Assembly (NCBI GenBank): GCA_017645905.1
Contig: JAGCNO010000159.1
Coordinates: 1-36,143, forward strand
Length of the DNA: 36,143 nucleotides
Direction: 5' to 3'
Source of the DNA: Prevotella sp.
GTDB taxonomy: Bacteria; Bacteroidota; Bacteroidia; Bacteroidales; Bacteroidaceae
The position numbers and the translations under genes were made by a program. The notes under the pieces were generated by a model. That model worked only from the letters and a program-made list of their open reading frames with translations. It was not told the DNA's origin and searched no databases. Shown in pieces: positions 4,786 to 35,604 of the stretch. Each line of letters opens with the position of its first letter. The stretch's first letter is position 1.

Positions 4786-4868
4786 GAAAGAACGGCTTAT
4801 TCGTTTTGAAAGAACGGCTTATTCGAATCGAAAGAACGGCTCTTTCACATCGAAAGAACGGCTCTTTC
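4786..4868 (+). repeat. 22-nt palindromic array A (4 units)
   Basis: Units at 4786-4802, 4808-4824, 4830-4846 and 4852-4868, exactly 22 nt apart. Units 1-2 read GAAAGAACGGCTTATTC; units 3-4 read GAAAGAACGGCTCTTTC, a perfect 6-bp stem (GAAAGA/TCTTTC) around a 5-nt centre. Spacers are GTTTT, GAATC and ACATC. The array ends 8 nt from the stop codon of the minus-strand gene 4877-5380, so it would lie in that gene's 3' untranslated region and 300 nt upstream of the gene starting at 4484. Confidence 0.9.
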
Positions 4869-4876
4869 TCAGCCCT

Positions 4877-5380
4877 TCAATATTCTACTAATACCTCCTT
4901 CAGCCGTTCCTTACGTTTTTTCTTGGGGCTCTTCTTCCACTTTTTAGGGATGAGGTATTTCAGGAGTCCGAAAAGGTTGCCGTTCGTCGACTGAATGGAA
5001 GCCATCTGAAGCTCCGTCTTCGACGGGCGCATGTGGCTCTGCAAATCCTTGAAATCGTCTACGAGCGGCGTCTTTCCAAAGACCACCACCTCTTTGACGC
5101 TCAGCAGCTTGGAGAGCAGGAACACGGTGTCTCTCACCTCATCCAGGTTGATGAGCCGGCTCTCGTAATTGACGTGCGAGAAGAGGAGGCTGCGGCAGCT
5201 GTCTGGGATGGTGATGATGCCGAGCGAGTCTGCCTCGATAGCGAAGCCATTGCCCGCAGCATTGGCACCGCCGACAGGTTCGAGCGTCTCAAAGTCGATG
5301 ACGGAAAGCCGTCGCTGGCCCAGACAGCCCATACTGCACATAAGCGCTAAAATAAGCAGATGGCTCCTAAAGTTCTTCAT
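4877..5380 (-). CDS. Small secreted protein with carboxypeptidase-regulatory-like (beta-sandwich) domain
   Basis: A 167-residue protein. The ATG at 5380 gives a signal peptide (MKNFRSHLLILALMCSMGCLGQ) and lies 8 nt from a promoter box, so it is preferred over an ATG 13 codons upstream. Residues about 20-95 (VIDFETLEPVGGANA, then a G..TIPD turn and FSHVNYESRLINL) follow the pattern of CarboxypepD_reg-like domains, which in Bacteroidetes often sit at the N-terminus of TonB receptors; here the domain stands alone. The C-terminal 30 residues are very Lys-rich (IPKKWKKSPKKKRKERLKE). The Cys in MCSMGC might act as a lipobox but the spacing is poor. Function unknown. A 22-nt array starts immediately after its stop. 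Confidence 0.7.
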   Translation of the reverse strand: MKNFRSHLLILALMCSMGCLGQRRLSVIDFETLEPVGGANAAGNGFAIEADSLGIITIPDSCRSLLFSHVNYESRLINLDEVRDTVFLLSKLLSVKEVVVFGKTPLVDDFKDLQSHMRPSKTELQMASIQSTNGNLFGLLKYLIPKKWKKSPKKKRKERLKEVLVEY

Positions 5381-5388
5381 CGTGATTG

Positions 5389-5396
5389 CAAAGATA
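5389..5396 (-). promoter_or_regulatory. -7 box TATCTTTG, 8 nt from the start codon
   Basis: On the minus strand TATCTTTG matches TAnnTTTG exactly. Only 8 nt separate it from the ATG at 5380. With the usual distance from box to transcription start, the leader would be only a few nucleotides. Confidence 0.6.
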
Positions 5397-5525
5397 GGCA
5401 TCACTTCCTGCACGCACAAATTATTTTGTTGTATTTAGCCATTCTCAATAGCCATTAACTTAAAAAGGACGAGGCTTGTGTGAACAACTAATAAACGGGG
5501 CACTTTCTACTTAATAAACTATAAA

Positions 5526-5542
5526 AACTAAAACATTTAGTT
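5526..5542. promoter_or_regulatory. Palindromic operator 1 for the BlaI-type repressor
   Basis: AACTAAAACATTTAGTT: 7-bp perfect inverted arms around ACA. It is 17 nt long, lies upstream of the repressor start, and has the same arm sequence as operator 2. The centre-to-centre distance to operator 2 is 23 bp, about two helical turns. Confidence 0.75.
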
Positions 5543-5548
5543 GGTAGG

Positions 5549-5565
5549 AACTAAAAGTTTTAGTT
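5549..5565. promoter_or_regulatory. Palindromic operator 2 for the BlaI-type repressor
   Basis: AACTAAAAGTTTTAGTT: 8-bp perfect inverted arms around one G. It overlaps a probable -7 box (TTACTTTG, 5563-5570), so binding would block transcription of the repressor-peptidase pair. BlaI/MecI repressors are known to bind paired palindromes in their own promoters; the assignment to this protein is inferred from position. Confidence 0.75.
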
Positions 5566-5633
5566 ACTTTGCCGACGGATACTGATACTGACCAATTGCA
5601 AATCGTAAATTGTAAATCGAAAAAACGCAAATC

Positions 5634-6023
5634 ATGAATAGGCTGACCACGAAAGAACGGGAGATTATGGAGTTGTACTGGCAGCACGGTCCTTTGTTTG
5701 TGAAGGAGCTGCTGGAGTATTACGACGAGCCGCGACCCCACTTCAACACGCTGTCCACGACGGTGCGCATCCTGGAGAAGAAGGGGTTCCTCGACCATAA
5801 GCAGTACGGCACGTCCTACCAGTACTACCCCCTCGTCAGCGAGAAGGAGTACGGGCGCTCGAGCCTGGGCGGCATCATCCGCGACTACTTCAACGACTCC
5901 TACCTGAGCGCTGTCTCTGCCTTCGTGAAGGAAGAGAAGATTTCCGTGGACGAACTGAAAGAACTGATAGAAAAGATTGAAAACGGAAATAGCCAAATTG
6001 TAAATAGTCAAATTGCCCAATGA
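5634..6023 (+). CDS. BlaI/MecI/CopY-family transcriptional repressor
   Basis: A 129-residue winged-helix protein of the penicillinase-repressor family. Residues 1-75 contain the DNA-binding domain (LTTKEREIMELYWQHGP, VKELLEYY, then HFNTLSTTVRILEKKGFLDH as recognition helix and wing); about 80-118 form the dimerisation helices. In this family the repressor is inactivated by proteolysis by its partner M56 peptidase, here the next gene, whose ATG overlaps the stop as ATGA. Two matching palindromes at 5526-5565 are its likely operators. The last residues (NGNSQIVNSQIAQ) are encoded by a copy of the AAATTGTAAATAG word found elsewhere in the window, so the natural C-terminus has been extended or replaced by repeat sequence. 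Confidence 0.92.
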   Translation: MNRLTTKEREIMELYWQHGPLFVKELLEYYDEPRPHFNTLSTTVRILEKKGFLDHKQYGTSYQYYPLVSEKEYGRSSLGGIIRDYFNDSYLSAVSAFVKEEKISVDELKELIEKIENGNSQIVNSQIAQ

Positions 6024-7639
6024 GTACGTTTCTGACATACGACCTGAAGGTGGCCGTTCTGGTAGCAGTGTTCTACATGTTCTACCGTCTGCTGCTAAGC
6101 CGCGAGACCTTCCACCGCGTGAACCGCGTGGTACTGCTTACCACGGCCGTGGCGTCGTTCGTATTGCCGCTGATGGTCATCACCATCCACAAGACGGTGG
6201 TGGTGAGCGGAAGCGCAGGGACCATCGGGCTCGGCGGACTGTCCGCTGTGGTGGAGGAGGCACCGACGCCACTCTGGCAAATGCTCGCCGTGGGGCTGTT
6301 CTTCGCCGGCATGACCATAACGCTGGGGCACACGCTGCTGAGCGTGCTCCGCGTGTGGCTGCTCATCCGTCGCTGCGAGCGCCATCCGCTGGCTGACGGC
6401 ACCGTCGTCTGCGTCGCCGACCGCGACCTGTCGCCCTTCAGCTGGATGCACTTCATCGTACTCTCACGAAACGACTACGAGACTGGCGAGGTCTCCATCC
6501 TCGCCCATGAACGGGGACATATCAGCCAGCGCCACTCGCTCGACCTGCTCCTCGTTGATACCCTCACCGCCCTGCAATGGTTCAACCCCGCGATGTGGAT
6601 GCTGCGCCAGGACCTGCGCGCCATCCACGAGTACGAGGCCGATGCGGCGGTGCTCTCTCAAGGCATCAATATGCGTCAGTATCAGTATCTGCTTATCCAA
6701 AAAGCCGTCAGCCGCTGCGGGTACTCGGTGGCAAACGGCATCAGTCACAGTACCCTCAAAAACCGCATAAACATGATGCTCAATAAGAAATCAAACCGCA
6801 GGAGCATGCTCAAGCTCCTCGCTCTGCTGCCCATCGTGGGCACCGTACTGGCCCTGCAGGCCGAGACCGTGAACGACTACGTCTACAGCGAGCCGCAAAA
6901 GAAGATTGTGAAGAAAGGCCGCAAGGCTGGACAAATCAAGGTGGGCGCCAACACCATCGAGGTGAAGACCGACTCGGCCGTCTACACCGGAGAGAACGTC
7001 ATGATGAACATCGACAAAGATGACGTTGCAGACGGCGAGCTGATAGTCATCGATACGATTGATGCCAAGGCCAACCCGCTCATTATCATCGACGGGCAGC
7101 GCGCCACGGTGGAACAGATGGATGCCCTCGACTCGAAGACCATCGGCCACGTTACCGTGCTGAAAGACAAGGCCGCCATTGAGCAGTTTGGCGAAGGCGG
7201 CAAGAACGGCGTCATCATCATCACCACGAAAAAGGAGCCAGTGTTGTTCCTCGGCAAGGCTAAGGTGGACAGTACCGGCATACAGTTTAAGGAGGCCGTG
7301 ATGGAAAGCCCGTCGGAGTACGAGGATGTCTTCGACGTGGTGGAGAAGATGCCTGAGTTCCCAGGCGGCGTCGAGGGAATGATGAAGTTCCTGACGGAGA
7401 ACGTGCGCTATCCCGAGCCCGCCCATAAGGCTGGCACCGAGGGCCGCGTGCTGGTGCAGTTCATCGTAGAGACCGACGGTACCGTCAGCAACGCCAAGGT
7501 GGTGAAGAAGGTGAGCGACGACCTCGACGGCGAGGCCATCCGCGTGGTCGGCTCCATGCCGAAGTGGAAACCCGGCACACAGAACGACCGGCCCGTGCGC
7601 GTTAAGTACACACTCCCCATCTCCTTCCGCCTGAAATAG
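6020..7639 (+). CDS. BlaR1-type M56 metallopeptidase fused to a plug-like segment and TonB C-terminal domain
   Basis: A 539-residue inner-membrane protein. Membrane helices are at about residues 9-26, 36-57 and 88-116. The M56 zinc site is HERGH at 163-167, with EYEAD at 204-208 supplying the third ligand. A further hydrophobic segment (about 265-280) is followed by a periplasmic region. About 353-405 (IIIDGQ...VTVLKDKAAIEQFGEGGKNGVIIITTK) resembles the start of TonB-receptor plug domains. About 445-539 is a TonB C-terminal domain (PEFPGGVEGMMKFLTENVRYP...GRVLVQFIVETDGTV...). There is no penicillin-binding sensor domain as in BlaR1. The likely role is to sense an envelope signal, cleave the BlaI-type repressor and possibly couple to outer-membrane receptors. 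It is translationally coupled to the repressor by ATGA. Confidence 0.9.
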   Translation: MSTFLTYDLKVAVLVAVFYMFYRLLLSRETFHRVNRVVLLTTAVASFVLPLMVITIHKTVVVSGSAGTIGLGGLSAVVEEAPTPLWQMLAVGLFFAGMTITLGHTLLSVLRVWLLIRRCERHPLADGTVVCVADRDLSPFSWMHFIVLSRNDYETGEVSILAHERGHISQRHSLDLLLVDTLTALQWFNPAMWMLRQDLRAIHEYEADAAVLSQGINMRQYQYLLIQKAVSRCGYSVANGISHSTLKNRINMMLNKKSNRRSMLKLLALLPIVGTVLALQAETVNDYVYSEPQKKIVKKGRKAGQIKVGANTIEVKTDSAVYTGENVMMNIDKDDVADGELIVIDTIDAKANPLIIIDGQRATVEQMDALDSKTIGHVTVLKDKAAIEQFGEGGKNGVIIITTKKEPVLFLGKAKVDSTGIQFKEAVMESPSEYEDVFDVVEKMPEFPGGVEGMMKFLTENVRYPEPAHKAGTEGRVLVQFIVETDGTVSNAKVVKKVSDDLDGEAIRVVGSMPKWKPGTQNDRPVRVKYTLPISFRLK

Positions 7640-7677
7640 CGAACAACGATAGTATCGCTCAGACTTTACGCTCAAAC

Positions 7678-7740: not shown

Positions 7741-7766
7741 TTCTTACTGAGGGTTATGTGGAAATG

Positions 7767-8834: not shown

Positions 8835-8860
8835 ATTGGGTGATTTGGTGGTTTGGGGAG

Positions 8861-9163: not shown

Positions 9164-9169
9164 TTTTTT

Positions 9170-9270: not shown

Positions 9271-9284
9271 TTGGTGGTTTCGGG

Positions 9285-10736
9285 TTAGATGCGTTTGAGT
9301 ACGAGCAGGAGATGATCCCAGACCATCTGAACGGTGGGGATGTGGAGACACTCGTCGGGGCTGTGCACGCCGCGCAGGGTGGGCCCGAAGGAAATCATGT
9401 CGAGCTGGGGATAGCGCTCGCTGAAGAGTCCGCACTCCAGTCCGGCGTGGATGCCGCGCACGATGGGCTCTTTGCCGAAGAGCTCTTTGTAGCAGGCCAC
9501 GACGGTGTCGCGCAGGTGGCTCTCGGCGCGCATCTTCCAGGCGGGATAGCCGTCGCTGTGCTTCACCTCGGCCCCGGCCAGCTGGAAGGTGGCGGAGATG
9601 GTGGCGCACATGTTGTCGAGGTTTGACATGACGTTGGAACGCTGCGATGCCAGGGCCGTGATTTCGTTCTCAGCCGTGTGTACCGAGGCGATGTTCGACG
9701 AGGTCTCGACAAGTCCGCCGAGGTCAGGGTCCTGGCAGATGGCGTAGATACCGTTGTCCACAGCCTGAAGCGCCCATACGAAGTTGCGTGCCGTAGAGGT
9801 GTCGATGACAGGCTCGGCGTCAGTGCTCTCCATGAACCATCCCATGTTCGGGTCGGTGACGTGGAACTCGTCCTCCACCTGCGAGGCAAAGATGTTCCAG
9901 TCGGCTTTCACGTTCTCCTTCACGTCGTTGGGCACGCCGATGACGAACATACCGTCGCGGGGAATGGCGTTGTGGAGTTTGCCGGAGTGGAACTGGGCAA
10001 GGCGCACACCTTCGTAGCGGTTCATGGTCTGGAAGAGGAAGCGGCCGAGGATCTTGATGGCGTTGGCGCGCTTCTTGTTGATGTCGTCGCCGGAATGTCC
10101 GCCGGTGAGGCCCTTCAGCTGAGCCTTCAGGAAGAAGAGCTTTGACGGGCTGGTCTCCCTACTGATAGCGAACTTTGCGGTAGTGGTACGTCCTCCGGCA
10201 CAGGATACGAACATCTCGCCCTCGTCCTCGGAGTCGAGGTTGATGAGGTATTCGCCGGTCATGAAACCGCTCTTCATGCCCTCGGCACCGGTGAGTCCCG
10301 TCTCCTCGTCGCGGGTGAAGACACATTCCAGCGGGCCGTGCTCGATGTCGTTGGCCTCGAGGATGGCCAGTTCTATGGCGCAGCCTATGCCGTCGTCGGC
10401 ACCGAGCGTGGTACCCTTGGCGCGCAGCCACTCGCCGTCGACGTAGGTCTGAATGGCGTCATGGTCAAAGTCGAACTCCACGTCGACCAGCTTGTCGCAG
10501 ACCATGTCCATGTGGCTCTGCAGGATGACCGTCTTGCGGTTCTCATATCCTGGTGTGGCACCCTTGCGGATAAGCACGTTGCCGGTCTCGTCGACGATGG
10601 TCTCCAGGCCGTGACTCTCACCCCACTGGCGGAGGTACTCTATCATTTTCTCCTCGCGCTTCGACGGGCGGGGAATGGTGTTGATTCTTGCAAACTGCTC
10701 GAATACTGACTTAGGTTTTAGTTCGTTGCTATTCAT
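9285..10736 (-). CDS. pepD: Aminoacyl-histidine dipeptidase (M20C family)
   Basis: A 483-residue cytoplasmic metallopeptidase of the PepD/carnosinase-like M20C type, which hydrolyses Xaa-His and other dipeptides. Zinc-site residues are visible: SHMDMV (His75, Asp77), TTLGADDGIGCA (bridging Asp about 114) followed by TRDEETGLTGAEGM (catalytic Glu-Glu about 144-145), and NLDSEDEGEMFVSCAGG (Asp about 174). The lid domain follows (GGHSGDDINKKRANAIK), and the C-terminus returns to the catalytic domain (VRGIHAGLECGLFSERYPQLDMISFGPTLRGVHSPDE), with the last conserved His in GVHSP. Length is normal for the family. A three-unit 22-nt array lies 60 nt upstream. Confidence 0.95.
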   Translation of the reverse strand: MNSNELKPKSVFEQFARINTIPRPSKREEKMIEYLRQWGESHGLETIVDETGNVLIRKGATPGYENRKTVILQSHMDMVCDKLVDVEFDFDHDAIQTYVDGEWLRAKGTTLGADDGIGCAIELAILEANDIEHGPLECVFTRDEETGLTGAEGMKSGFMTGEYLINLDSEDEGEMFVSCAGGRTTTAKFAISRETSPSKLFFLKAQLKGLTGGHSGDDINKKRANAIKILGRFLFQTMNRYEGVRLAQFHSGKLHNAIPRDGMFVIGVPNDVKENVKADWNIFASQVEDEFHVTDPNMGWFMESTDAEPVIDTSTARNFVWALQAVDNGIYAICQDPDLGGLVETSSNIASVHTAENEITALASQRSNVMSNLDNMCATISATFQLAGAEVKHSDGYPAWKMRAESHLRDTVVACYKELFGKEPIVRGIHAGLECGLFSERYPQLDMISFGPTLRGVHSPDECLHIPTVQMVWDHLLLVLKRI

Positions 10737-10798: not shown

Positions 10799-10859
10799 GA
10801 AAGAACGGCTTTTTCTCATAGAAAGAACGGCTTTTTCCCATAGAAAGAACGGCTCAAAC
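10799..10859 (+). repeat. 22-nt palindromic array B (3 units)
   Basis: Units at 10799-10815, 10821-10837 and 10843-10859, exactly 22 nt apart. The first two read GAAAGAACGGCTTTTTC; the third ends in a different right half (GAAAGAACGGCTCAAAC). Spacers are TCATA and CCATA. The array begins 63 nt upstream of pepD and ends 3 nt from the stop codon of the gene 10863-11489. Confidence 0.9.
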
Positions 10860-10862: not shown

Positions 10863-11489
10863 TTACTTCCCTCGTTTGTCTACGTATTTGTATTCGCTAC
10901 CGTAGCGGTTTCGGGGAAATACGAAGACGTTGTCCTGTATACCGCCCGGACGGAAATTGCTGATGCTGATGTGTGCCCAGATAAAGGCCACCTTAATCTT
11001 GACGTGGATAGGGTAGAGCGTCTTGGGGTCGAGCGTCACCTTTGCCTCTTTGATGGTGCCCTTTGCCCCTTTGTGCTGTTTCAGCGTTAGCATGATGTTG
11101 TTGTCCTCGCGCTTCATGCTGTAGTCGAAGTCTTCGACGTCAAACTTGAACTTCCCGGAGTACTTGTCCTTCTTGTCCGAGTTGGCGTTGTGAATCTCTA
11201 TCGTCTTCTTCTTGCGGTATACCATGTAGGCCGTGACACCGTCGTTCCAGGTGTCCACACGCTCGTCGGTGAAACGTTGCTTCTTCCCCTTGTACGTTAT
11301 GGTGCCGCTGGTCTTGTAAATGCTGATGATGTTCACATCGTAGTGCAGGGAGCATCCTTGCGTGCCAAACACCATCTCGTAGACCTTGTCGAAGACGCGG
11401 CGGGCCTCAGCGGAATTCGTGTTTTTCTTTGCCGCACCGGCGGGCAACAGGCAAAGCACGGAGAGCAGTATGATGATAATACGTCTCAT
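10863..11489 (-). CDS. LolA-like secreted protein
   Basis: A 208-residue protein. The ATG at 11489 begins a signal peptide (MRRIIIILLSVLCLLPAGAA); a TTG four codons upstream would place the start inside the promoter region. The mature part has the pattern of LolA-like outer-membrane lipoprotein carrier domains: an N-terminal helix (ARRVFDKVYEMVF), then successive beta strands (LHYDVNIISIYKTSGTITYKGKKQRF, GVTAYMVYRKKKTIEIHN) and a late LDPKTLYPIHVKIKV segment. It would act in the periplasm on lipoproteins or lipids; the ligand is unknown. It has its own promoter box 9 nt upstream of the start and is followed at once by a 22-nt array. Confidence 0.72.
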   Translation of the reverse strand: MRRIIIILLSVLCLLPAGAAKKNTNSAEARRVFDKVYEMVFGTQGCSLHYDVNIISIYKTSGTITYKGKKQRFTDERVDTWNDGVTAYMVYRKKKTIEIHNANSDKKDKYSGKFKFDVEDFDYSMKREDNNIMLTLKQHKGAKGTIKEAKVTLDPKTLYPIHVKIKVAFIWAHISISNFRPGGIQDNVFVFPRNRYGSEYKYVDKRGK

Positions 11490-15669: not shown

Positions 15670-15725
15670 CGACTTTTCCACCTAATACCACTTTTATATA
15701 TTATACAAAAAACGGGTAGCAGGGT

Positions 15726-15737
15726 GCAAACGTTTGC
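15726..15737. promoter_or_regulatory. LacI-family-type operator upstream of malQ
   Basis: GCAAACGTTTGC is a perfect 12-bp palindrome with the central CG typical of LacI-family operators. Including three flanking bases on each side, 8 of the 9 base pairs are symmetrical. It lies about 57 nt upstream of the malQ -7 box, consistent with control by a maltose-type LacI-family regulator encoded elsewhere. No such regulator is in the window. Confidence 0.6.
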
Positions 15738-15775
15738 GCCCATCTGGACAAGGGGTCAGGGTGGGCAAAAAGTTT

Positions 15776-15876
15776 AAGCCGTTCAAACCTATAGAAAGAA
15801 CGGCTTTTTCTCATAGAAAGAACGGCTTTTTCTCATAGAAAGAACGGCTTTTTCTCTTGGAAAGAACGGTTCTTTG
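15776..15876 (+). repeat. 22-nt palindromic array C (4 units) with leading inverted half-unit
   Basis: Units at 15794-15810, 15816-15832, 15838-15854 and 15860-15876, exactly 22 nt apart; three read GAAAGAACGGCTTTTTC and the last GAAAGAACGGTTCTTTG. Spacers are TCATA, TCATA and TCTTG. An inverted half-unit AAGCCGTTC at 15776-15784 pairs perfectly (9 bp) with GAACGGCTT at 15798-15806. On the minus-strand RNA this hairpin is followed by AAACUUUUU, a terminator-like end for ilvN transcripts. Confidence 0.9.
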
Positions 15877-16598: not shown

Positions 16599-18337
16599 AG
16601 CATCATATCATCGACATTCATTCCCGGCGGTGTCATCGGCAGCACGTCGTCGTCCTCCAGGATGGCGCACTCCAGGATGTAGGGACCTTTCGTTGAGAGC
16701 ATCTTCGCTACAGCAGCAGCGAGGCGGCTGCGGTCGGTGACAGCCTGGTAGGGAATGTTATAGCCCTGGGCTATCAGTTCGTAGCAGGGGTTCATCATGC
16801 GGGTGAATGACTTGCGGCGGTTCCAGAACATGTCCTGCCATTGGCGCACGTTGCCGAGGTAGTTGTTGTTCATCAGAATCATCTTCACCGGCGCCTGCTG
16901 CTCCATGATGGTGCCCAGTTCCTGGATGTTCATCTGGAATCCGCCGTCGCCCATAAAGCAGACGACGGTGCGGCCCTCACTATTTACTATTTTCTCTTCA
17001 CTATTCACTAAGACACCGAAGGTGGCTCCGATGGCGGCGGGCATGCCGTAGCCCATGGTGCCCAGTCCGCCGCTGGTGCAGATGCTGCGGCGCTTCGGGT
17101 ATTTGAAGTATCGTGTGGCGAAGAGCTGGTTCTGCCCCACGTCGGTGACGAGCACGGCGTCGCCCTGGGTGGCCTCGGCAACGGCGTTCACCACCTCGCC
17201 CATGAGCAGCGGCCCCTCCTTGGGGTGGATGGCCGGCTCGATGACCTTCTCGCGCTCCTTGGCGTCGAGGGGCAGGAACGAGGAGCGCCATTCATGGTGG
17301 TCGCCCTTGTTGAGCAGTGCCGTGATGGCGGGCAGCGACTCCTTGCAGTCAGCCACGACGGCCACGTCGGTCTTCACGTTCTTGTCAATCTCGCTCTTGT
17401 CGATGTCTAAGTGGATGATCTTCGCCTGGCGGGCATAGGTCTTCGTGTTGCCTGTCACGCGGTCGCTGAAGCGCATTCCGATGGCGATGAGCACGTCGCA
17501 CTCCTGCTCCTTCAGGTTCACGGCGTAGTTGCCGTGCATGCCCAGCATGCCGACGTTCAGCGGATGGGTCGACGGCAGAGCAGAGAGTCCCAGCATGGTG
17601 CGGCCGGCGGGGATGTCGGCCTTTTCAAGGAAGGCCAGCAGCTCGTCCTGAGCATTGCCCAACTCTACGCCCTGGCCTACGAGTGCCAGCGGCTTCTTCG
17701 CGTTGTTAATCAGCTCGGCGGCCTGACGCACGGCATCGTGGTCGAGTGGGGGATAGGCCACGTAGCTGCGTACAAAATCCTCTTTCTGCGGCACGAAGTC
17801 CACCTTCTCCGTCTGAGCGTTCTTCGGGAAGTCGAGCACCACGGGCCCCGGACGGCCGGAACGGGCAATGTAGAACGCACGGCTAACGGCCCAGGCGATG
17901 TCCTCGGCGTGGCGTATCTGGTAGCTCCACTTCGAGATGGGCTGTGCCAGACCCACGAGGTCTACCTCCTGGAAGGCATCCGTGCCGAGTGCGCTGATGG
18001 GCACCTGTCCGGCAATGACGACGATGGGCGTACTGTCGAGCATGGCGTCGGCCACGCCCGTGAGTGTGTTGGTGGCTCCGGGGCCGCTGGTGACGATGGC
18101 CACACCGACATTGCCACTCACACGGGCAAAGCCCTCGGCGGCATGGGTGGCGGCCTGCTCGTGGCGCACAAGGATGTGGTCGAAGGCCTTCTTCTCACCT
18201 CGGGTGTAGTCGTAGAGGGCATCGTAGACGGGCATGATGCTGCCACCGGGATAGCCGAAGATGGTCTTCACGCCCTCGGCCTTCAGCGCGAGCATCAAGG
18301 CCTCGCTGCCGGTAACGGTCAGTGGTTGTCTTTCCAT
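16583..18337 (-). CDS. ilvB: Acetolactate synthase catalytic (large) subunit
   Basis: A 584-residue thiamine-diphosphate enzyme condensing two pyruvates to acetolactate (or pyruvate and 2-ketobutyrate to acetohydroxybutyrate), the first common step of valine, leucine and isoleucine synthesis. Visible features are the ThDP-activating Glu60 in VRHEQAATHAAEG, SGPGATN, and the ThDP/Mg motif GDGGFQMN (463-470) running to NNNYLGNVRQWQ. Residues about 444-455 (VNSEEKIVNSEG) interrupt the usual link just before TVVCFMGDGGFQMN. They are encoded by a low-complexity word (CACTATTTACTATTTTC type, 16977-17010) and are absent from typical IlvB proteins. The C-terminus is also formed by a repeat. The upstream region carries AATTTACGATTT words rather than a clear promoter box. 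Confidence 0.96.
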   Translation of the reverse strand: MERQPLTVTGSEALMLALKAEGVKTIFGYPGGSIMPVYDALYDYTRGEKKAFDHILVRHEQAATHAAEGFARVSGNVGVAIVTSGPGATNTLTGVADAMLDSTPIVVIAGQVPISALGTDAFQEVDLVGLAQPISKWSYQIRHAEDIAWAVSRAFYIARSGRPGPVVLDFPKNAQTEKVDFVPQKEDFVRSYVAYPPLDHDAVRQAAELINNAKKPLALVGQGVELGNAQDELLAFLEKADIPAGRTMLGLSALPSTHPLNVGMLGMHGNYAVNLKEQECDVLIAIGMRFSDRVTGNTKTYARQAKIIHLDIDKSEIDKNVKTDVAVVADCKESLPAITALLNKGDHHEWRSSFLPLDAKEREKVIEPAIHPKEGPLLMGEVVNAVAEATQGDAVLVTDVGQNQLFATRYFKYPKRRSICTSGGLGTMGYGMPAAIGATFGVLVNSEEKIVNSEGRTVVCFMGDGGFQMNIQELGTIMEQQAPVKMILMNNNYLGNVRQWQDMFWNRRKSFTRMMNPCYELIAQGYNIPYQAVTDRSRLAAAVAKMLSTKGPYILECAILEDDDVLPMTPPGMNVDDMMLEPTP

Positions 18338-18470
18338 ATTTACAATTTGACGATTTACGATTTACAATTTATTTTACAAATTGGACATTTTTTGACGAAT
18401 TTTCGATTTTAGATTTGTCACTATAGCGGCAGCAAATTCTTCACTCTTCACTTTTCACTCTTCGCCCTTC
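18338..18470. repeat. Word-rich spacer between lptD and ilvB
   Basis: 18338-18389 consists of AATTTGACGATTTACGA-type words immediately upstream of the ilvB ATG. 18440-18470 consists of TTCACTCTTCACTTTTCAC-type words ending exactly at the lptD stop codon. No clear hairpin terminator or TAnnTTTG box is visible. Confidence 0.6.
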
Positions 18471-21903: not shown

Positions 21904-22133
21904 TTTACTTCCTGAACCTTGCACAAAATAAGGAATCTGTGCAGAAATAACAGCAAAAATGTCAGTTTTTAACAATCGTTCACTTCTCAAACGGCGAAAA
22001 TGCCCCGAACTGCTTGCCTGCCGGAAGCGCATATCTATACACCGTGTGCCACAAAAAATACCTGTTTGACGGCATTTTTATGCAATTCGTGTCCGTTTTG
22101 ACTGTCAGTCATCCGGTATGTCTTCCAGAGTTT

Positions 22134-22212
22134 AAGCCGTTCAAACCCATAGAAAGATACGTTCTTTCTCCTGGAAAGATACGTTCTTTCTCCCAGAAAG
22201 GTACGTTTTTTC
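22134..22212 (+). repeat. 22-nt palindromic array D (3 units), variant core
   Basis: Units at 22152-22168, 22174-22190 and 22196-22212, exactly 22 nt apart. The first two read GAAAGATACGTTCTTTC; the third is GAAAGGTACGTTTTTTC. Spacers are TCCTG and TCCCA. The 6-bp arms GAAAGA/TCTTTC are kept while the centre is TACGT instead of ACGGC. An inverted half-unit AAGCCGTTC precedes it at 22134-22142, as in array C, but still has the old core. The array is about 120 nt beyond the stop of the kinase gene 22333-23193. Confidence 0.85.
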
Positions 22213-22332: not shown

Positions 22333-23193
22333 CTATACTTTCTTGGCGGGGATGGTGAAGGTGAAAGTGGTTCCCTGCCCGGGCTGTGAGGTGAAGGTGA
22401 GCTTTCCGCCGTGCTTGTTCTCAATGATGTCGCGGGTGATGGCCATGCCGAGGCCGGTTCCCTCGCCGACGGGCTTGGTGGTGAAAAAGTTCTCGTAGAG
22501 GCGCTCCTTCACCTCGGGTGTCATGCCTATGCCGTTGTCGGCAATAGTGACAGTAATAAAGGTCTGAGGTCTAAGGTCTGAGGTCTGAAGTCCTTGTTCT
22601 GAGGTCAGGAAGACCTTGACGTCGACGTGTGGCTGGTAGTCGGGTGGGGCGGTCTGCTGTTTCTGCCAGACGGCGTAGCAGGCGTTGTTCATAAGGTTGA
22701 GGACGGCGCGGCTGAGGTCCTGGGGTATGACCATGAGGGGTGGCAGCTGCTCCTGGTAGTCCTCGCTGATGCTGATGTTGAAGCCCTTGTAGTTGGCGCG
22801 CATGGCGTGGTAGGAGAGCCAGACGTACTCCTTGACGAGGTGTGCGACGTCGGTGGGCAGGAACTCGTTGTCCTTGCCGCGTGAGACGAGGAGTATGCCG
22901 TGGATGATGCTGATGGCACGCTCGCCGTGCTCCACGATGCGGGACATGTTGTCCTTGAGGTCGGAGACGATGTCGTCGAGCTCTTCGCGGTCGGCGGCGG
23001 GCAGGGCGTCCTCGTTGTCGGCGACGATGTCGGTGAGGTCGGAGAGTAGCTTCGACGACATCTTGCTGAAGTTGATGACGAAGTTCAGCGGGTTTTGTAT
23101 TTCGTGTGCGATGCCGGCGCTGAGCATGCCCAGCGAGGCGAGCTTCTCCTGCTGGCGGAGGCGCTGCTGAAGGGATTCTACTTGCTTTTCCAT
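22333..23193 (-). CDS. Soluble histidine kinase with intact His box
   Basis: A 286-residue cytoplasmic kinase with no membrane segment or sensor domain. A short coiled coil (MEKQVESLQQRLRQQEKLAS) leads into the HisKA box AGIAHEIQNPLNFV with His30. The catalytic ATP-binding domain shows the N box (NLMNNACYA, Asn170), G1 (DNGIGM, 219-224), F box (FFTTKP) and G2 (GTGLGM, 245-250). Residues about 197-212 (TSEQGLQTSDLRPQTF) sit in the loop before ITVTIADNG and are encoded by a GAGGTCTGAGGTCTAAGG-type word (22561-22600). It overlaps the end of the propeller sensor gene by 16 nt and carries the phospho-accepting His that the sensor lacks. No response regulator lies nearby. Confidence 0.9.
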   Translation of the reverse strand: MEKQVESLQQRLRQQEKLASLGMLSAGIAHEIQNPLNFVINFSKMSSKLLSDLTDIVADNEDALPAADREELDDIVSDLKDNMSRIVEHGERAISIIHGILLVSRGKDNEFLPTDVAHLVKEYVWLSYHAMRANYKGFNISISEDYQEQLPPLMVIPQDLSRAVLNLMNNACYAVWQKQQTAPPDYQPHVDVKVFLTSEQGLQTSDLRPQTFITVTIADNGIGMTPEVKERLYENFFTTKPVGEGTGLGMAITRDIIENKHGGKLTFTSQPGQGTTFTFTIPAKKV

Positions 23194-26138
23194 GTCGGGG
23201 AGCTTATTGGTAGTGTGATTGTAAATTCGGTGTATTCTCCTTTTACGGAGTGTACGGTGACGTCGCCGCCGTGATTCTGAACGATTTCCCGGCTGATGTA
23301 GAGTCCTACGCCGGATGCCTCGCCTGTGGTCTTGGTGGTGAAGAAGGGGTCGAAGATACGGTCTATGATGGCGCTCTCTATTCCCGTTCCGTTGTCGTGG
23401 ACGATGATGACGGCAGTCCCCTCGGTGGTCTTCAGTTCCAGCCTTACCTCTGGTTGATAAGGGGTGAGCGGTGAGGGGTGAGGGTTGAGAGGTTTGAGGT
23501 CTGAGATCATTCTTTGGTCTTTCTTGACGACTGCATAGACGGCGTTGCGCAGCATGCTCATGACGGTCATGCTCAGCAGCTCGGCGTTTCCCTTGATGCG
23601 GACGTCGGCGGCGGGCAGGGTGAAGTGTGTGCTGATGTTGTGGGCGGAAATCTCCTTCTCGTAGTATTTATGGAGCATCTGCTCGTTCTGGCGCAGCATG
23701 TCGGTGAGGCTCATGTCATGCTGTCCGCCGGTGCGGTCCTTGAGCATCTCTTCCATAGCCTTGAGGACGCGCGAGGTGTTGGCGCCATGCTCTCCGACCT
23801 TCTGCAGGTTGCCCTTCAGCATGCCGAGCACCTCGATGGTGTCGTCGTAGTTGTCGGGGCTGATGTGCTCCTTCTCGTCCTCAATGTTGGCGATGACATC
23901 TTTGACGAGGTTTTCTGAGAGCTTTGCGAAGTTGTTGATGTAGTTCAGGGGGTTGAGTATTCGGTCTATGAGTCCCTGTGTGAGCTTACCCACGGTGGCC
24001 ATCTTCTCCTGTCGCACCAGCTCGTGCTGTGCCTCGACGAGGTCGGCCGTACGCTCCTGCACTACGGTCTCCAAGTGGTGCTTGTCTTTCTCTAACCGGT
24101 AGAGCCTGAAGCGCATGAGGGCGTAGCCGATGGCCGCGATAACGAGGACGTAGAGCAGCTGCATGTACCAACGCCGGTACAGGGGTGGCATGATGCTGAA
24201 GTCGATGCCCACGATGTCTGACAACCGCCCGTAGGCGTCGCGTGCCTGCACCTCGAAGTGGAAGTCGCCGTAGGTGAGGTTGCTGTACTCCTCGAAGGTC
24301 AGGTCCTCCCAGGCGCTCCAGTTTCCGCCGTTCAGGCGTGTGCGGTATTGTGTGGCGAGCAGCAGCGATGGGCAGTCGATGGAGTAGTCGAAGACGATGT
24401 GGTGCTCGTTGCTGGCCAGTTCGGGCAGCTTGTCGGGCATCGGGCCGTAGCCTCCCCAGATGATGCTGTCGCCGTGAAGCCTTACGGAGCGCACCAGGAG
24501 CCGGGGCTTGACGGTGAAGGTGGGGTCTTCATAGTTGTCGTTTGCGATGAAGAGGCCTTTGTCGCCGCCCATCCACAAGTGGCTGTCGCGGCGCATCATG
24601 GCCCGTACGGAGTAGTCCATGAGGGGATAGACCATCTGTGACAGGTGCTCCTCGAGGGTGCTGTCCTTCATGGCATAGAGACTGTGCCCCTTGTTGTCGG
24701 TGAGCCACAGCAGTCCCTCGTCGTCGGCATAGGAGAAGAGCGGGTAGGGGAAGGGCTTCTTGTCGTTGGCCGCCACCGACATCACACGCCCCTTGTAGCT
24801 GACGAGGGAGCGAATCTCGTCGAGTGAGGAGTGAGGAGTGAGGGGTGAGGGGTGAGGAGTGAGGAGTGATGAGTGAGGTGCAGTCCAGATACTACCGTAG
24901 AGGTTTTGCAGCCAGAGCGTTCCTTCGTCGTCGGTCACCATGCTCACGACCTTCTCTGTGTCCCAAAGCGTCCGGCGTTGGAGGGCATTTACACTCCCTG
25001 CCGGCCCGTTGGTGTTCAGGTATACGCCGTCCATCTCTCCACTGAGGAAGGCGCCGTTGTCGAGGGGCATCACTGAGAGTGAGCCTGTCACGGTGAGACG
25101 GTTCACTCTGTGGTCTGGCAGTATGGCGTAGATTCCGTCGATGCTGGCGGCCAGCAGACGGTCTCTCTGTCGTTTCAGCTGCCAGCAGGCGAGTGATATT
25201 TCCATTACCGGCACGAAGTGTTTTCCCTGCAGGCGGTAGAGCCCGCTCTGTGTGCCTACGTAGATGTCGTTGCCGAGCGTTTCCATGCAGCGCACCTCTC
25301 CTCGCAGTCCTTCGTTGTGGGTGAAGCGTGAGTAGATGGATGGGAAGGCTATGGCGAAGATGCCGTTGTCGGTGGCTCCCCAGAGCAGTCCGTGACCGTT
25401 GTAAGCCAGTCGCACCACGTTGTCGGAACAGAGGCCATTGGCCTGACTGATGCGGCAGAACTCAGTGCCGTCGCTGGTGGCGAGAATGACTCCCTCGCCG
25501 TTGGTGGCGATGGCCTTTACGCCGCCTTCCAGCGTGACCTCCTGATTGATGTATGCCTCGAGGCTGGTGTCCCTGCCTTGACGTTCGGACAACGGTTTCT
25601 TGATGGTGAGCGTCAGTGTGCTGTCGGTGACGATGTATTCGCTTCCGTCGCTGACGAGAGCGTGGACCTCGTTGTCCGCTTCCCAAAATTGCAGCACCTC
25701 GCCGTTCACGCTCAAGGGGATCAAAGTGCTGGAGGGGGGGTGCAATCCCCGACCGATGGCCTTCAGGCAGAGGATGCCGTCGTCGGTGTTGGCGAGGCGA
25801 CCGATGTAGTTGTATCCTCCGGTCCAGAGTGTTCCCTTGGAGTCGCGGAAGAGCGACGTCACACGGGTGATGCCTGGTGTGTGGATGATGCGCCACGTTG
25901 CCTGGTCGTAGTAGAGCAGTCCCTCGAAGTTGGCGACGTAGACGATGCCGTTATCGTCGGTGACGATGTCGAAGTTCTGGTTGTGGGCCTTGTACTCTGT
26001 GGAGGGGAAGTTTTGGAAGAAGGGTATGCCTTGGGCGTGGAGATTGAGGATAGAAGATTGAAGATTGAAGATTGCTGCGCACAGCAAGAACTGGCGCAGG
26101 AGTGTATTCTGGCATATATCCTTCAACAGGCGAATCAT
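23178..26138 (-). CDS. Propeller/Y_Y_Y sensor kinase lacking the phospho-acceptor His
   Basis: A 986-residue inner-membrane protein from the ATG at 26138, chosen over an upstream in-frame ATG because it begins a signal-peptide-like segment and lies 5 nt after the preceding stop. The periplasmic part has regulator-propeller repeats (GTLWTGGYNYIGRL, GLLWGATDNGIFAI, DIYVGTQSGLYRL, LWMGGDKGLFIA) and a Y_Y_Y domain (QYRTRLNGGNWSAWEDL). A membrane helix is at about 656-675, followed by a coiled coil. The dimerisation box reads TQGLIDRILNPLNYINN, with Asp725 where His is expected (AHE replaced by IDR). The ATP-binding boxes look complete: MLRNAVYAV, HDNGTGIE, FDPFFTTK and GEASGVGLYI. Low-complexity words encode FNLQSSILNLHA in the signal region, TPHPSPLTPHSS in the propeller and SDLKPLNPHPSPLTP in the catalytic domain. 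Confidence 0.88.
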   Translation of the reverse strand: MIRLLKDICQNTLLRQFLLCAAIFNLQSSILNLHAQGIPFFQNFPSTEYKAHNQNFDIVTDDNGIVYVANFEGLLYYDQATWRIIHTPGITRVTSLFRDSKGTLWTGGYNYIGRLANTDDGILCLKAIGRGLHPPSSTLIPLSVNGEVLQFWEADNEVHALVSDGSEYIVTDSTLTLTIKKPLSERQGRDTSLEAYINQEVTLEGGVKAIATNGEGVILATSDGTEFCRISQANGLCSDNVVRLAYNGHGLLWGATDNGIFAIAFPSIYSRFTHNEGLRGEVRCMETLGNDIYVGTQSGLYRLQGKHFVPVMEISLACWQLKRQRDRLLAASIDGIYAILPDHRVNRLTVTGSLSVMPLDNGAFLSGEMDGVYLNTNGPAGSVNALQRRTLWDTEKVVSMVTDDEGTLWLQNLYGSIWTAPHSSLLTPHPSPLTPHSSLDEIRSLVSYKGRVMSVAANDKKPFPYPLFSYADDEGLLWLTDNKGHSLYAMKDSTLEEHLSQMVYPLMDYSVRAMMRRDSHLWMGGDKGLFIANDNYEDPTFTVKPRLLVRSVRLHGDSIIWGGYGPMPDKLPELASNEHHIVFDYSIDCPSLLLATQYRTRLNGGNWSAWEDLTFEEYSNLTYGDFHFEVQARDAYGRLSDIVGIDFSIMPPLYRRWYMQLLYVLVIAAIGYALMRFRLYRLEKDKHHLETVVQERTADLVEAQHELVRQEKMATVGKLTQGLIDRILNPLNYINNFAKLSENLVKDVIANIEDEKEHISPDNYDDTIEVLGMLKGNLQKVGEHGANTSRVLKAMEEMLKDRTGGQHDMSLTDMLRQNEQMLHKYYEKEISAHNISTHFTLPAADVRIKGNAELLSMTVMSMLRNAVYAVVKKDQRMISDLKPLNPHPSPLTPYQPEVRLELKTTEGTAVIIVHDNGTGIESAIIDRIFDPFFTTKTTGEASGVGLYISREIVQNHGGDVTVHSVKGEYTEFTITLPISSPTWKSK

Positions 26139-31884: not shown

Positions 31885-31926
31885 TTTATTATAGTTGTCT
31901 GCCTGAAGCTGATTCCTTATACTACA

Positions 31927-31961: not shown

Positions 31962-31968
31962 TTAGTTG

Positions 31969-34900
31969 TTATTTGCTGGCCATGATGGTGATGATGGCTG
32001 AGATGTCGGCTACGTCGACGGCTCCGTCTTCATTGACATCGGCGTATTCGAACAAGACATCTGTGCTTCCGGCCATGAAGCTGATGACGGCTGAGACATC
32101 GGCCACGTCGACGGCTCCGTCGCGGTTCACGTCGCCCTTGAGCATGATTACGGAAGGCTTGGTGTAGCTCGACGAGACGTTTGTCTTGGCGATGGTTGGG
32201 ATGTTCATGGTGAGTACCTCGTCGGCGCCGTCGGGATAGCGTCCGGCGGTCTCGTCGCCCTTCATGGGGCCGTAGGTGAGGCGGTCGGTCCACGACTCGT
32301 CGGCAGCGGTGAGCAGCAGTTCGTCGCCCTCGGCAGCCAGCTTGAAGGAGGCGTGCAGCTGCGTCAGCGGTTCACGCTGGTCGCACCAGACGATGAGGTA
32401 GCCGTGAGGCGGGATGATGGTGCCTGGGGCTTCGGGCAGCAGCGGCGCTACGTCCCAATACTCTTCGGGTGTGAAGAGCGGCGCCTCGATTTCGTATTTC
32501 TTAGGCTTGTCGGGATTGTCGGAGAGGTACATGCCCTCCACGTTGACAGGCTTGTCGGTGGTGTTGTAAAGTTCCACCCAGTCGCTGCGCTTGAAGTATT
32601 CGTTGACGAAGATGTCGTTAGAGGCGCTCACCTCGTTGATGCGTACGGGCGTAGGCTGGGCATAGAGCATTGACCATTCTTCCTCGTCCATTTCCTTGAA
32701 GGTGGCGACGAGGGTCACGCTGCTGCCTTCGGGCAGACTGACGACGGGGTCGGTGGAGATAATCTCCGTGCCTTTCTTCCATCCGGCGAAGGTGTAGCCG
32801 TAGGGAGCCTTGGCCTCCAGCTCGACGGGAGCAAAGAGGTGGCCGTTGAACATCGACCACTGTCCGTTGGTCTTCGAGACATTTCCGGTGGGCACGGCGA
32901 CACCGTTGATGAAGAGCTTTGCCCCCTCGACATCGGTGTTCAGCTTGACGGCCTGTGCGCTTTCGCGGAGCTTCGCATAGGAGAAGCCCTTGAGGTGTCC
33001 GGCCATCTTCTGCGAGCGGCCCTGCAGCTTGTTCTTGATGGTTGAGGCGGCGCGGTCGGGGTCATGGCCATCGTTGATGCCCTGCTGCTTCATCAGCTGG
33101 CACATGGGCTTGACGTTGTTCAGCAGTTCGTCGACAATCTTCCCGGCCCGTGTAGGCTCGAAGACGGTTCCTCCGATGATGCAGAACGTGTCGATGAACT
33201 TGCGGCGGAATTCGTCGTGACCCAGGAGGTTGAGGAGAAGCCGCACGATGTCGCGGTTGCGGTTAGCCTCGCCGTCGACGGTCGCAGCATCCTTGAACTG
33301 CAGGAAGTAGGCGAAGGGGTCGTCGTTCTCCTTGTTGAAGCCGCGCAGGGCGAAAGCATAGTCGAGGTCGAACGACACGAAGCGGTAGCGGCCGTCGTGC
33401 TGGCTACGGTATGCCTTGATGTTGTTGTTTGGCCAGTCGTCGTTGTCGAGGAACATGGTGACAGCCATGTAGTTAGTGAACTCGTCGATGTCGAGCAGCG
33501 TCTTCAGCTCCTTGTAGGCCTCTTCGCTCTCCTCGGTGCCGTTGCTCACCGTTTCGCTCAGCTCGATGATGCGGTTGAGGGCATCGGCGGTGCCGTTCTT
33601 CATCTCCTCGTTCTCGAAGGCATCGAGCTCTTCGTCGTCATAGCCCCAGTTGGCGTAGGCAAACTTGTCGTTGTTAGGCTCACGGAGGTTGAGCACACCG
33701 CGCAGCTCGCCATTGACATACTCAATGACAGGCACATAGGACTGCACGTCGACATCGATGCCCGACCGCTGGATGATGGTCTCTAAGGCAGGGTCCAAGA
33801 AGCGAGCGTTGTGGCTCCAGATGTCGTTGCCGCCGTTACGAACAAGGAGTGTCTTGCTGCGAATGTAAGGCTTCTGGGGGAAGAAGGGGTAGTCGAGGTG
33901 GTTTGTTCCGTCGAACACCTTGTTGCTCTTCAGCTTGAACGAGCGGAAGCGCTGCGAGCGTGTCCAACCGCCCGAGACGGCGATGTTCACGTCCTGGTTG
34001 AAGAGCATCTCGCCCTCAGGCGTGAGGTAGCTGAAGTTCACGGGGCGGTCCCACGGCTGGTTATAGTTGCGGGGCATGTCCTGTCCGTTGCCGGTCTTGC
34101 CGTTGGTGCCGTCGCCGTCGCAGTCGAAGCCAATCTTTGGGTCGGTGAAGTGCTTCTTATCGCCCACGATGCTGATGACGGGCAGGGTGTACGTGTTGCT
34201 GGTCTTGATATAGCTGCGGGTGACGGGCACGCTGGGCAGGAATCCGTCCTGATAGAGACGAACGCAGAGGTTGGTGGTCTTCGAGAAGGTGAACTTTCCG
34301 TCCTTGCTCTGCTGGCTTGCCTCGACAGCCTGTCCGTCGCCAGTAAAGAGCTCCCATGAGACATCGTCGAAGTAGAACTCGTTGTCCTGCCGGTCGATGT
34401 TCAGGTTGAAGGCGATGGTCTGCATGTCCTGCACGGTTTCCTGTCCTCCCCACCATCCGCCGCCTTGCTTGCCGACATGCTGGTCGGTAATGGTGCCCTC
34501 GTAGGTTATTTCTTGCCATTCTGTCGTGACGTTGTAGTTGCCATCAAGTATGCTGCTATATATATAATTATGTGGTGTGGTGTGTGTCTGTGCTGCGATG
34601 CGGGCTGCCTTGTCTGCCCTTACCCACATGTGGAAGCGGTATTTCTCGCCGGAACGCCAGATGTGGTCCGGGGTGTAGACAAAGAACTGTGCATCCCAGT
34701 CTTCCGCTGCACTGGCTGAGGCATGTATGCGTATTCCCCTCGAACCGTCGAGGCCCACGCCGTCGACGATGCGCTGGGCGTCGCCGTTGCCGCCTGCATC
34801 GCGGCTGACGAGGCAGGTGGCATCGTCGCCCTCGCAATTGCCGTTGATGATATATTCCGTCCAGGGATTCTCAGGGTCGGCGTCCGGCTTGGGTGCTGTG

Positions 34901-35475
34901 GGCACGCTGCCGTCGGTGGTGTACATCAGAGTGGCTCCCTCGGGAATGTTAACGTTCACCGTCACCGTGTTTTTGAAGAGACAGCTGCCCTGGCTCACCA
35001 CGGGGGCGTCCAGTCGCTTGCTGGCGAAGACGGCGGTGGCGTTGGTAGCGCCGGGCGTGGGGTTGGCGGTCCATCCCCATTCGCCCGTGCCGTCCTCCAT
35101 GCGGGCCCAGGCCGTGCGGCTCTTGGCTTCGGGATAGACCTCGCTGGCTATCAGCTGGCCGAATGAATTGCTCAGGAAGATGGTATCGCCATCGCAGTCC
35201 AGCTTGAACGGTGCCTGGTCTGTCCTGATCTCGTCAGAGCCCAGCCAGATGACCTTGAAGCCCTTGGCGGGGATGGTGCCGATGCTGGAAGGAATCTTCC
35301 ACATCTTCAGGTTCTCGGCATCGTTGCTGAGGTACATGCCGCCGAGGCTGACGGCGCCGTCGCTGGGGTTGTAGATTTCCACCCAGCTGTCAAAGTTGAT
35401 AGCCGGACTCATCACCTCGCCCACATTGGCGGCCATGAGTTCATTGAAAATGAGTGCAGCTGTTGCAAGTGTCAT
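31969..35475 (-). CDS. CotH-kinase-family protein with lamin-tail, carbohydrate-binding-like and dockerin-like domains
   Basis: A large (1168-residue) protein. Domains in order: lamin-tail domain (LIFNELMAANVGE...DSWVEIYNPSDGAVSLGGMYLS); chitobiase-C-terminal-like segment (NIPEGATLMYTTDGSVPTAP); CBM4-like beta-sandwich (about 230-400); CotH kinase-like domain (about 430-860, with FLDPALETIIQRS, NLREPNNDKFAYAN, MFLDNDDWPNNNIK and SFDLDYAF near 700); an InlB-B-type repeat (YGYTFAGWKKGTEIIST); a second lamin-tail domain (about 955-1100); and a C-terminal dockerin-like pair (GDVNRDGAVDVADVSAVI and ADVNEDGAVDVADISAII). The start is odd: an in-frame stop three codons upstream leaves only MTLATAALIF, too short and uncharged for a normal signal peptide. 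Substrate unknown; CotH proteins can phosphorylate protein Ser residues. Confidence 0.88.
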   Translation of the reverse strand: MTLATAALIFNELMAANVGEVMSPAINFDSWVEIYNPSDGAVSLGGMYLSNDAENLKMWKIPSSIGTIPAKGFKVIWLGSDEIRTDQAPFKLDCDGDTIFLSNSFGQLIASEVYPEAKSRTAWARMEDGTGEWGWTANPTPGATNATAVFASKRLDAPVVSQGSCLFKNTVTVNVNIPEGATLMYTTDGSVPTAPKPDADPENPWTEYIINGNCEGDDATCLVSRDAGGNGDAQRIVDGVGLDGSRGIRIHASASAAEDWDAQFFVYTPDHIWRSGEKYRFHMWVRADKAARIAAQTHTTPHNYIYSSILDGNYNVTTEWQEITYEGTITDQHVGKQGGGWWGGQETVQDMQTIAFNLNIDRQDNEFYFDDVSWELFTGDGQAVEASQQSKDGKFTFSKTTNLCVRLYQDGFLPSVPVTRSYIKTSNTYTLPVISIVGDKKHFTDPKIGFDCDGDGTNGKTGNGQDMPRNYNQPWDRPVNFSYLTPEGEMLFNQDVNIAVSGGWTRSQRFRSFKLKSNKVFDGTNHLDYPFFPQKPYIRSKTLLVRNGGNDIWSHNARFLDPALETIIQRSGIDVDVQSYVPVIEYVNGELRGVLNLREPNNDKFAYANWGYDDEELDAFENEEMKNGTADALNRIIELSETVSNGTEESEEAYKELKTLLDIDEFTNYMAVTMFLDNDDWPNNNIKAYRSQHDGRYRFVSFDLDYAFALRGFNKENDDPFAYFLQFKDAATVDGEANRNRDIVRLLLNLLGHDEFRRKFIDTFCIIGGTVFEPTRAGKIVDELLNNVKPMCQLMKQQGINDGHDPDRAASTIKNKLQGRSQKMAGHLKGFSYAKLRESAQAVKLNTDVEGAKLFINGVAVPTGNVSKTNGQWSMFNGHLFAPVELEAKAPYGYTFAGWKKGTEIISTDPVVSLPEGSSVTLVATFKEMDEEEWSMLYAQPTPVRINEVSASNDIFVNEYFKRSDWVELYNTTDKPVNVEGMYLSDNPDKPKKYEIEAPLFTPEEYWDVAPLLPEAPGTIIPPHGYLIVWCDQREPLTQLHASFKLAAEGDELLLTAADESWTDRLTYGPMKGDETAGRYPDGADEVLTMNIPTIAKTNVSSSYTKPSVIMLKGDVNRDGAVDVADVSAVISFMAGSTDVLFEYADVNEDGAVDVADISAIITIMASK

Positions 35476-35521
35476 AGTAATTTATAATTGGACAATTTAC
35501 GATTTACTGATTTGTTTCGGA

Positions 35522-35604
35522 GAAAGAACGGCTTTTTCCCATCGAAAGAACGGCTTATTCCCATTGAAAGAACGGCTTATTCTCATCGAAAGAACGGCTT
35601 ATTC
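35522..35604 (+). repeat. 22-nt palindromic array E (4 units)
   Basis: Units at 35522-35538, 35544-35560, 35566-35582 and 35588-35604, exactly 22 nt apart: GAAAGAACGGCTTTTTC once and GAAAGAACGGCTTATTC three times. Spacers are CCATC, CCATT and TCATC. It begins 46 nt from the CotH start codon, and unlike arrays A-D it lies between divergent genes. Confidence 0.9.

Follow-up and report, generated by a model that had tools for sequence, protein, structure and literature searches.

In plasmid iterons and partition centromeres, binding sites follow one another in arrays with a phase of one or two turns of the helix, confined to one locus per replicon; the arrays described here, in contrast, occupy many loci with a regular pitch. 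Among chromosomal repeats, REP/BIME elements are, like these arrays, intergenic, palindromic, species-specific, present in more than 100 copies and clustered at regular spacing, and BIME-2 elements bind DNA gyrase, with a suggested role in chromosome organisation (excerpts of PMC2817692). The present arrays differ from REP/BIME by their 22-nt step and even chromosomal pitch, as well as by the lack of a GTAG-type head and of compensatory pairing, and in two array-bearing genomes no RAYT gene was found. Within the Bacteroidales, the BrickBuilt MITE of Porphyromonas gingivalis also consists of dispersed intergenic tandem repeats; its 23-nt unit is repeated 1 to 22.8 times between a leader and a tail with inverted ends, in 19 copies (excerpts of PMC4596501). 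The arrays reported here have neither leader nor tail, number about 300 by density and mostly contain 4-5 units. The same excerpts note an earlier mention, without locations, of 22-nt tandem repeats in P. gingivalis W83, which may be related to our arrays. Two further systems offer functional likenesses only. The 13-bp matS sites of Escherichia coli, recognised by MatP, occur 23 times within an 800-kb domain (excerpts of PMC3330122) and provide an analogy as dispersed sites of a chromosome-organising protein, such a protein being predicted for our arrays; matS sites are nevertheless single and restricted to one domain, whereas the arrays were found across all sampled stretches. The uptake signals of Haemophilus influenzae are likewise short, species-specific, genome-wide repeats, but are presented in the excerpts of PMC7811141 as single sites about 1 kb apart and not as arrays.

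The window analysed here is a 36,143-nt stretch of a Prevotella genome (G000; 3.40 Mb, 181 contigs, 87.5% complete), in which an earlier note had described five intergenic arrays comprising 18 palindromic units, all with an exact 22-nt step and one shared orientation. Direct inspection of the window recovered the five arrays where they had been placed (Table 1), and all 15 steps measured exactly 22 nt, a period also returned by Tandem Repeats Finder for 5/5 arrays. The number of units had to be raised to 20, since the arrays starting at 15794 and 22152 each possess one additional in-register upstream GTTTAAGCCGTTCAAAC unit, at 15772 and 22130-22146, respectively. The shared orientation did not survive this inspection, as for the units of the array at 22152 it is the minus strand that lies closer to the consensus (2 mismatches). 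Independent gene calls agreed in placing the five arrays outside genes, with array 1 located 8 nt from the stop of a minus-strand gene (4877-5332) and array 2 only 3 nt from that of a minus-strand LolA-like gene (10863-11489). The 17-nt pattern (up to 3 mismatches) had 22 matches in the window, including 2 outside arrays and 3 on the opposite strand of an already counted unit, against 0.75 expected in shuffled sequences (shuffle maximum 4). A Pfam scan of 10 proteins encoded next to or near the arrays assigned 7 to families (peptidase M20, LolA-like, 4-alpha-glucanotransferase, acetolactate synthase small subunit, LptD, histidine kinase, and CotH/dockerin) and 3 to none. The earlier remark that no named family was recognised for the unit was also borne out: Rfam yielded 0 matches at gathering score in the window, and neither a family name nor a published description was found in the open-licence literature, including the available excerpts of PMC5771137 and PMC8040213.

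Table 1. Positions of the arrays, of repeats found beside them and of Y1 matches (arrays 1 to 5 in window coordinates).
Feature	Position	Strand	Description
Array 1	4786..4868	+	4 units, 22-nt step, GAAAGAACGGC + TTATTC or TCTTTC
Array 2	10799..10859	+	3 units
Array 3	15772..15876	+	5 units; first = 15772-15788, GTTTAAGCCGTTCAAAC
Array 4	22130..22212	-	4 units of sub-family GAAAGATACGTTCTTTC, matching best on the minus strand
Array 5	35522..35604	+	4 units, between divergent genes
AATTCTC(N0-2)GAGAATT beside arrays	L056 ~3290-3380; L059 ~15715-15805; L060
GCGCTCGGCGACGAAGG repeat at array flanks	L049:8877-8930; L041; L058; other G000 flanks
G060 second-family arrays	G060:C1 5.5, 23.4, 68.7, 95.5, 109.0 kb		L228, L229, L101, L231, L103
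G016 Y1 (IS200-like) matches	L139:10881-11222; L207:1501-1842; G016:C1:669038-669235

Other repeats were encountered in the same regions. A second palindrome, AATTCTC(N0-2)GAGAATT, is present 10 times within 624 kb of G000 and directly adjoins several arrays, and a longer dispersed repeat containing GCGCTCGGCGACGAAGG, with 8 copies in the same 624 kb, abuts some of them. Heptamer tandem repeats (GAGTGAG, AGGTCTG and AGATTGA, at window positions 24822-24878, 22560-22618 and 26041-26074, respectively) form a second repeat class that is common in the related genome G062 too. Finally, the intergenic window region ~18337-18463 had many short matches in 4/4 MAGs searched and represents either a further dispersed repeat or a motif common to promoters or leaders.

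A search for pairs of neighbouring units (up to 3 mismatches) returned 727 occurrences across G000, 379 forward and 348 reverse, with 0 for the backwards control. Mapping was performed on a 624-kb sample of this genome (the window plus contig stretches L041-L060 and L177-L196), any run of at least 2 units being counted as an array, and revealed 58 arrays with 238 units. Both the pair search and this map bear out the earlier suggestion of a system dispersed beyond the window. Most arrays have 4 units (35/58) or 5 units (13/58), and units share a single orientation in 50 arrays and are mixed in 8. Two pairs of arrays lying 87 and 109 nt apart proved to be single long arrays with one 21-nt step, and their merging, which brought the total to 56, preceded the final spacing test. 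Extrapolated from the density in 624 kb, the genome would contain about 300 arrays. When distances between neighbouring units were collected without imposing any period, 148 of 22 nt were obtained in G000 vs 1 of 21 nt, 13 of 22 nt and 1 of 23 nt in G010, and only 22, 44 and 66 nt in G060. Spacers are weakly conserved in G000, with 70 distinct sequences among 180. Dyads alternate every 11 nt, as they would for any dyad with a 22-nt repeat, and this pattern carries no evidential weight.

The letters of the G000 unit have a narrow distribution. At least four other MAGs contain the pair, with at least 101, 20, 9 and 3 pair matches, respectively, and it was found in none of the 35 other congeners or 24 same-order genomes sampled. 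A phage origin was rejected on the basis of 0 exact matches in viral contigs, a search limited to the G000 pair pattern. The design of the arrays is more widely shared. Scanning samples from 15 genomes of the group for periods of 16-29 nt revealed 22-nt arrays in 10 of them (58 in G000, 23 in G062, 9 in G016, 7 each in G028 and G060, 4 in G010, 3 in G024, and 1 each in G022, G031 and G032); none was seen in the other five, represented by samples of only 10-20 kb each. Periods 19 and 23, the latter being that of BrickBuilt, were represented by 0 arrays in all 15 genomes and period 20 by 2. Period 21 was also high, with 31 arrays in G000 and 27 in G062, exceeding period 22 in G062 and G022; the examples inspected were simple heptamer-like repeats. 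Twenty samples from outgroups of the same order (272 kb) contained 1 array at period 22 and 2 at period 23. Outgroup arrays include a 22-nt array with a GTTTGAC...GTCAAAC dyad in G058 (L175:890-950) and 23-nt arrays of TCACAATCTTGTCAATTTTTATC in G053 (L170:8231-8298 and 9647-9751), a hint that phased arrays extend past the genus.

Each relative has its own version of the unit. In G010, AAAASATNATSTTTT was found at 146 pair places (control 0), while TGCGTCA in G016 gave 88 + 105 occurrences (control 1 + 1) and ATTACCCA-NNN-TGGGTAAT in G024 gave 19 + 17 (control 0). G062 has the units TTCCCACSGTGGGAA and CAAAAGCTATGGTTTTG, and G060 has GAAAGAACGGYTCTTTC and AGTATCT. In the second family of G060 (AGTATCT/AGATACT), an array is always built from six units, three pointing each way, and its five places in 120 kb are interleaved with five of the first family. 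A third 22-nt array, with about 7 copies of GTCCGTGCATGGTGCCGAGCGT, is located in G060 at C1 51823-51981 (L230). An artefact of a single MAG was judged unlikely, because the same design is present in G016 (1 contig) and G010 (3 contigs), both 99% complete. The units of relatives are dyad-symmetric, with cores of about 15-21 nt, each core and its spacer summing to 22 nt; because of this sum, the centre-to-centre distance looks constrained and not merely inherited through tandem duplication.

The even spacing of the arrays along the chromosome is new in this analysis. In the 624-kb sample of G000, 34 gaps on 12 contigs averaged 9.35 kb (CV 0.36), the shortest being 4.18 kb. With arrays assigned at random to intergenic regions no shorter than 120 nt (10,000 simulations), the CV was 0.79 with equal weights and 0.75 with length weights, and the observed value was reached by 0/10,000 simulations under either scheme; gaps below 4 kb, of which there were 0, were expected 10.3 and 9.5 times, respectively. 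Across 260 kb of G016, 27 arrays were found (3 for the reversed-core control), and their 20 gaps (mean 7.8 kb, CV 0.37, minimum 4.2 kb) were matched in evenness by 0/5,000 uniform placements. The palindromic sites are thus dispersed at non-random places. Blocks of 100 kb in G016, 100 kb in G010 and 120 kb in G060 (one family) were also scored separately at score thresholds of 12, 16 and 20. Evenness was supported in G016 (P = 0.013, 0.006 and 0.0007) and in G010 (P = 0.056, 0.002 and 0.006), where at thresholds 16 and 20 the 9 arrays had a mean distance of 10.4 kb and a CV of 0.37, with one gap of 1.76 kb. The evidence for G060 is mixed, with P = 0.37, 0.15 and 0.038 in the block and, among the matches listed, a CV of 0.36 vs 0.69 (P = 0.007) for 13 gaps drawn from 41 arrays, counting only contigs that carried 3 arrays or more. 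Among the matches listed for G010 and G016, the CV was not low, and short gaps numbered 0 vs 2.6 expected (P = 0.06) and 1 vs 5.7 (P = 0.008), respectively. Even spacing is therefore observed in three genomes.

Based on gene calls from our own codon-usage gene caller, the 58 arrays of G000 are distributed between tandem (29), divergent (14) and convergent (7) genes, 5 overlapping a gene call and 3 lying at sample edges, and the background, made up of intergenic regions 100 nt or longer, comprised 122 tandem, 50 divergent and 27 convergent cases. Relative to the direction of tandem genes, 16 arrays are opposite and 13 the same, so orientation is free, and both gene context and strand match the background. 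These observations bear on the proposal that each unit acts in transcripts as an RNA hairpin involved in 3'-end protection, termination or attenuation. The near-palindromic unit would suit this role, as would the position of 27/29 tandem-gene arrays closer to the upstream stop, a position expected with promoter avoidance. Folding evidence is mixed: a minor perfect G000 unit and the units of G010, G024 and G062 fold better than shuffles, as palindromes must, but the two commonest G000 units do not. Pairing between unit halves in G000 (0.546) is near the shuffled level (0.526, with 34/500 shuffles reaching 0.546), and changes were compensated in 38 cases vs one-sided in 241; half-pairing also fell within the shuffled range in the small samples of G010, G060, G024 and G062. 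Because the share of arrays between divergent genes (14/50 classifiable) equals the background, no strand is preferred and compensatory changes do not protect base pairing, the RNA reading is unsupported. Together with the Rfam result, these counts led us to set aside an RNA element, which we regard as very improbable. Among the roles envisaged in the earlier note, an array of proteins bound along a single face of the DNA, binding being our prediction, fits best, and attenuation and 3'-end processing are unsupported.

Comparison with G062, the closest relative found (JAFVFY; best matches 86-89% identical), revealed a rapid turnover. Both flanks of five G000 arrays were identified in G062 and four were aligned, the array at window position 35522 being left out; 0/4 of these orthologous gaps, including that of array 2, contain an array, with no clean insertion signature or target duplication. 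G062 itself has sparser arrays of several families. Between window positions 1.8 and 21.2 kb, gene order relative to G062 is interrupted every few kb (both genomes are MAGs), and an array lies in 2 of the 5 breakpoint intervals. Array places are thus unconserved while the pitch is similar among species, a combination compatible both with selection acting on pitch and with a mobile element subject to local exclusion.

Such an element is the main rival explanation, although we consider it rather unlikely. Target immunity is known from Mu, Tn3 and Tn7, and a selfish dispersed element whose copying enzyme is repelled by nearby copies would produce even spacing without any host function, the 22-bp step being the footprint of this enzyme. 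The rapid turnover of places and sequences is consistent with this reading, and a minimum-distance rule alone could account for the spacing in G016 (P = 0.30), but G000 is more even than this rule predicts (P = 0.017). Furthermore, stretches of 18 nt or more are common to 47/116 array flanks and the flank of another array, mostly other dispersed repeats, yet no common leader or tail was found among them. Neither do inverted-repeat ends or a leader and tail surround G000 arrays in general, where information content falls to about 0 beyond 2-3 nt of the edge; on this ground a BrickBuilt-type MITE was ruled out. The four aligned gaps without clean insertion or target duplication, and the absence of any transposase among the 10 proteins scanned in the window, also speak against a selfish element.

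A related proposal assigns the arrays to palindromic repeats of the REP/BIME type, mobilised by a Y1 (RAYT) transposase, which their intergenic, palindromic, species-specific and clustered nature would suit. RAYT-like genes are present in G000, one encoded protein matching NCBIfam NF047646 with 45 bits (cut-off 80), and PF01797 (E <= 0.001) was detected in G010, G016 and G062, with one match below cut-off in G000. In G016, each of the 3 Y1 matches has a 22-nt array no more than ~650 nt away. In nine genomes, a 22-nt array was found within ~1.5 kb of 6/16 RAYT-like loci, a number near a rough chance estimate of 3. What makes this proposal improbable is that no Y1 match (E <= 0.001) was obtained in array-bearing G024 (99% complete) and G060, and that the RAYT-like protein of G000 finds no counterpart in G010, G024 and G060; it was rejected because both PF01797 and protein searches found no Y1 gene in G024 and G060. 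Pairing, required for hairpin recognition, is moreover unprotected, and left flanks in G000 show only a GA preference at -2 and -1 and no GTAG-type head such as those listed for REP elements in the excerpts of PMC2817692. The earlier idea of a selfish palindromic repeat thus survives as a local-exclusion element, its REP/RAYT and BrickBuilt versions having failed. The Y1 match at L139:10881-11222 has inverted repeats of the CCCCACGTTGGC type on its flanks, and the RAYT-like genes of G062 and G061 adjoin 22-nt arrays at L213:2214-2276 (GTTTCCACGGTGGAAAC-like) and L217:2307-2357 (CTTTTACCACCCAAAAG), whose units are otherwise rare in the samples.

The arrays might also serve as a species-specific DNA-uptake signal, predicted to be spread so that most long fragments from kin carry one copy, each species having its own dialect. 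Species-specific letters, intergenic places, independence from gene orientation and even pitch are compatible with such a signal. To our knowledge, however, uptake signals are single short motifs and never 22-bp arrays. The array pitch is also about ten times wider than the average spacing of ~1,000 bp in H. influenzae (excerpts of PMC7811141), and we give this explanation little credence.

Altogether, these data suggest an undescribed set of putative protein-binding sites. The reading we favour, tentatively and with somewhat less than even confidence, is that of helically phased binding arrays for a putative fast-evolving protein, most likely organising the chromosome. The arrays are clusters of mostly 3-6 dyad-symmetric sites, 22 bp from centre to centre or about two helical turns, where several dimers of one sequence-specific protein could line up along the same face of the DNA; a dimer reading the two unit halves is the simplest reading of dyad sites. 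We infer protein binding, a dedicated protein and an organising role; binding is likely, and chromosome organisation, the best-supported role, may follow from clusters recurring between genes about every 8-10 kb as evenly distributed anchor or domain sites, similar to matS/MatP but chromosome-wide and in arrays. The main site sequence differs from species to species, so that site and protein seem to evolve in step, with the 22-bp ruler and the chromosomal pitch retained. We put forward with more reserve, as possible though doubtful, a system that would organise the chromosome across the whole genus in Prevotella-like Bacteroidales, in which a dedicated DNA-binding protein, evolving rapidly along with its site, would assemble on 22-bp-phased arrays every 8-10 kb throughout the chromosome and thereby set a regular pitch of loops or supercoil domains, with letters turning over among species and geometry (22 bp locally, ~9 kb globally) retained. 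Against the favoured reading of binding arrays stand the empty orthologous gaps (4/4) and the sparser, heterogeneous arrays of G062, the five relatives with no 22-nt array in 10-20 kb, the lack of evenness at some settings (G010 at threshold 12, G060, and the CVs of G010 and G016 among the matches listed), and the ability of a mobile element with local exclusion to space itself evenly.

If selfish and subject to local exclusion, the arrays would represent a dense and very even bacterial case. Under either reading, one protein per array family is a direct prediction. If the even pitch reflects function, the comparison of species would show which features of a binding array (step, number, pitch) persist when letters are free to vary, and a map of chromosome domains could be read from the sequence in a major group of gut bacteria.
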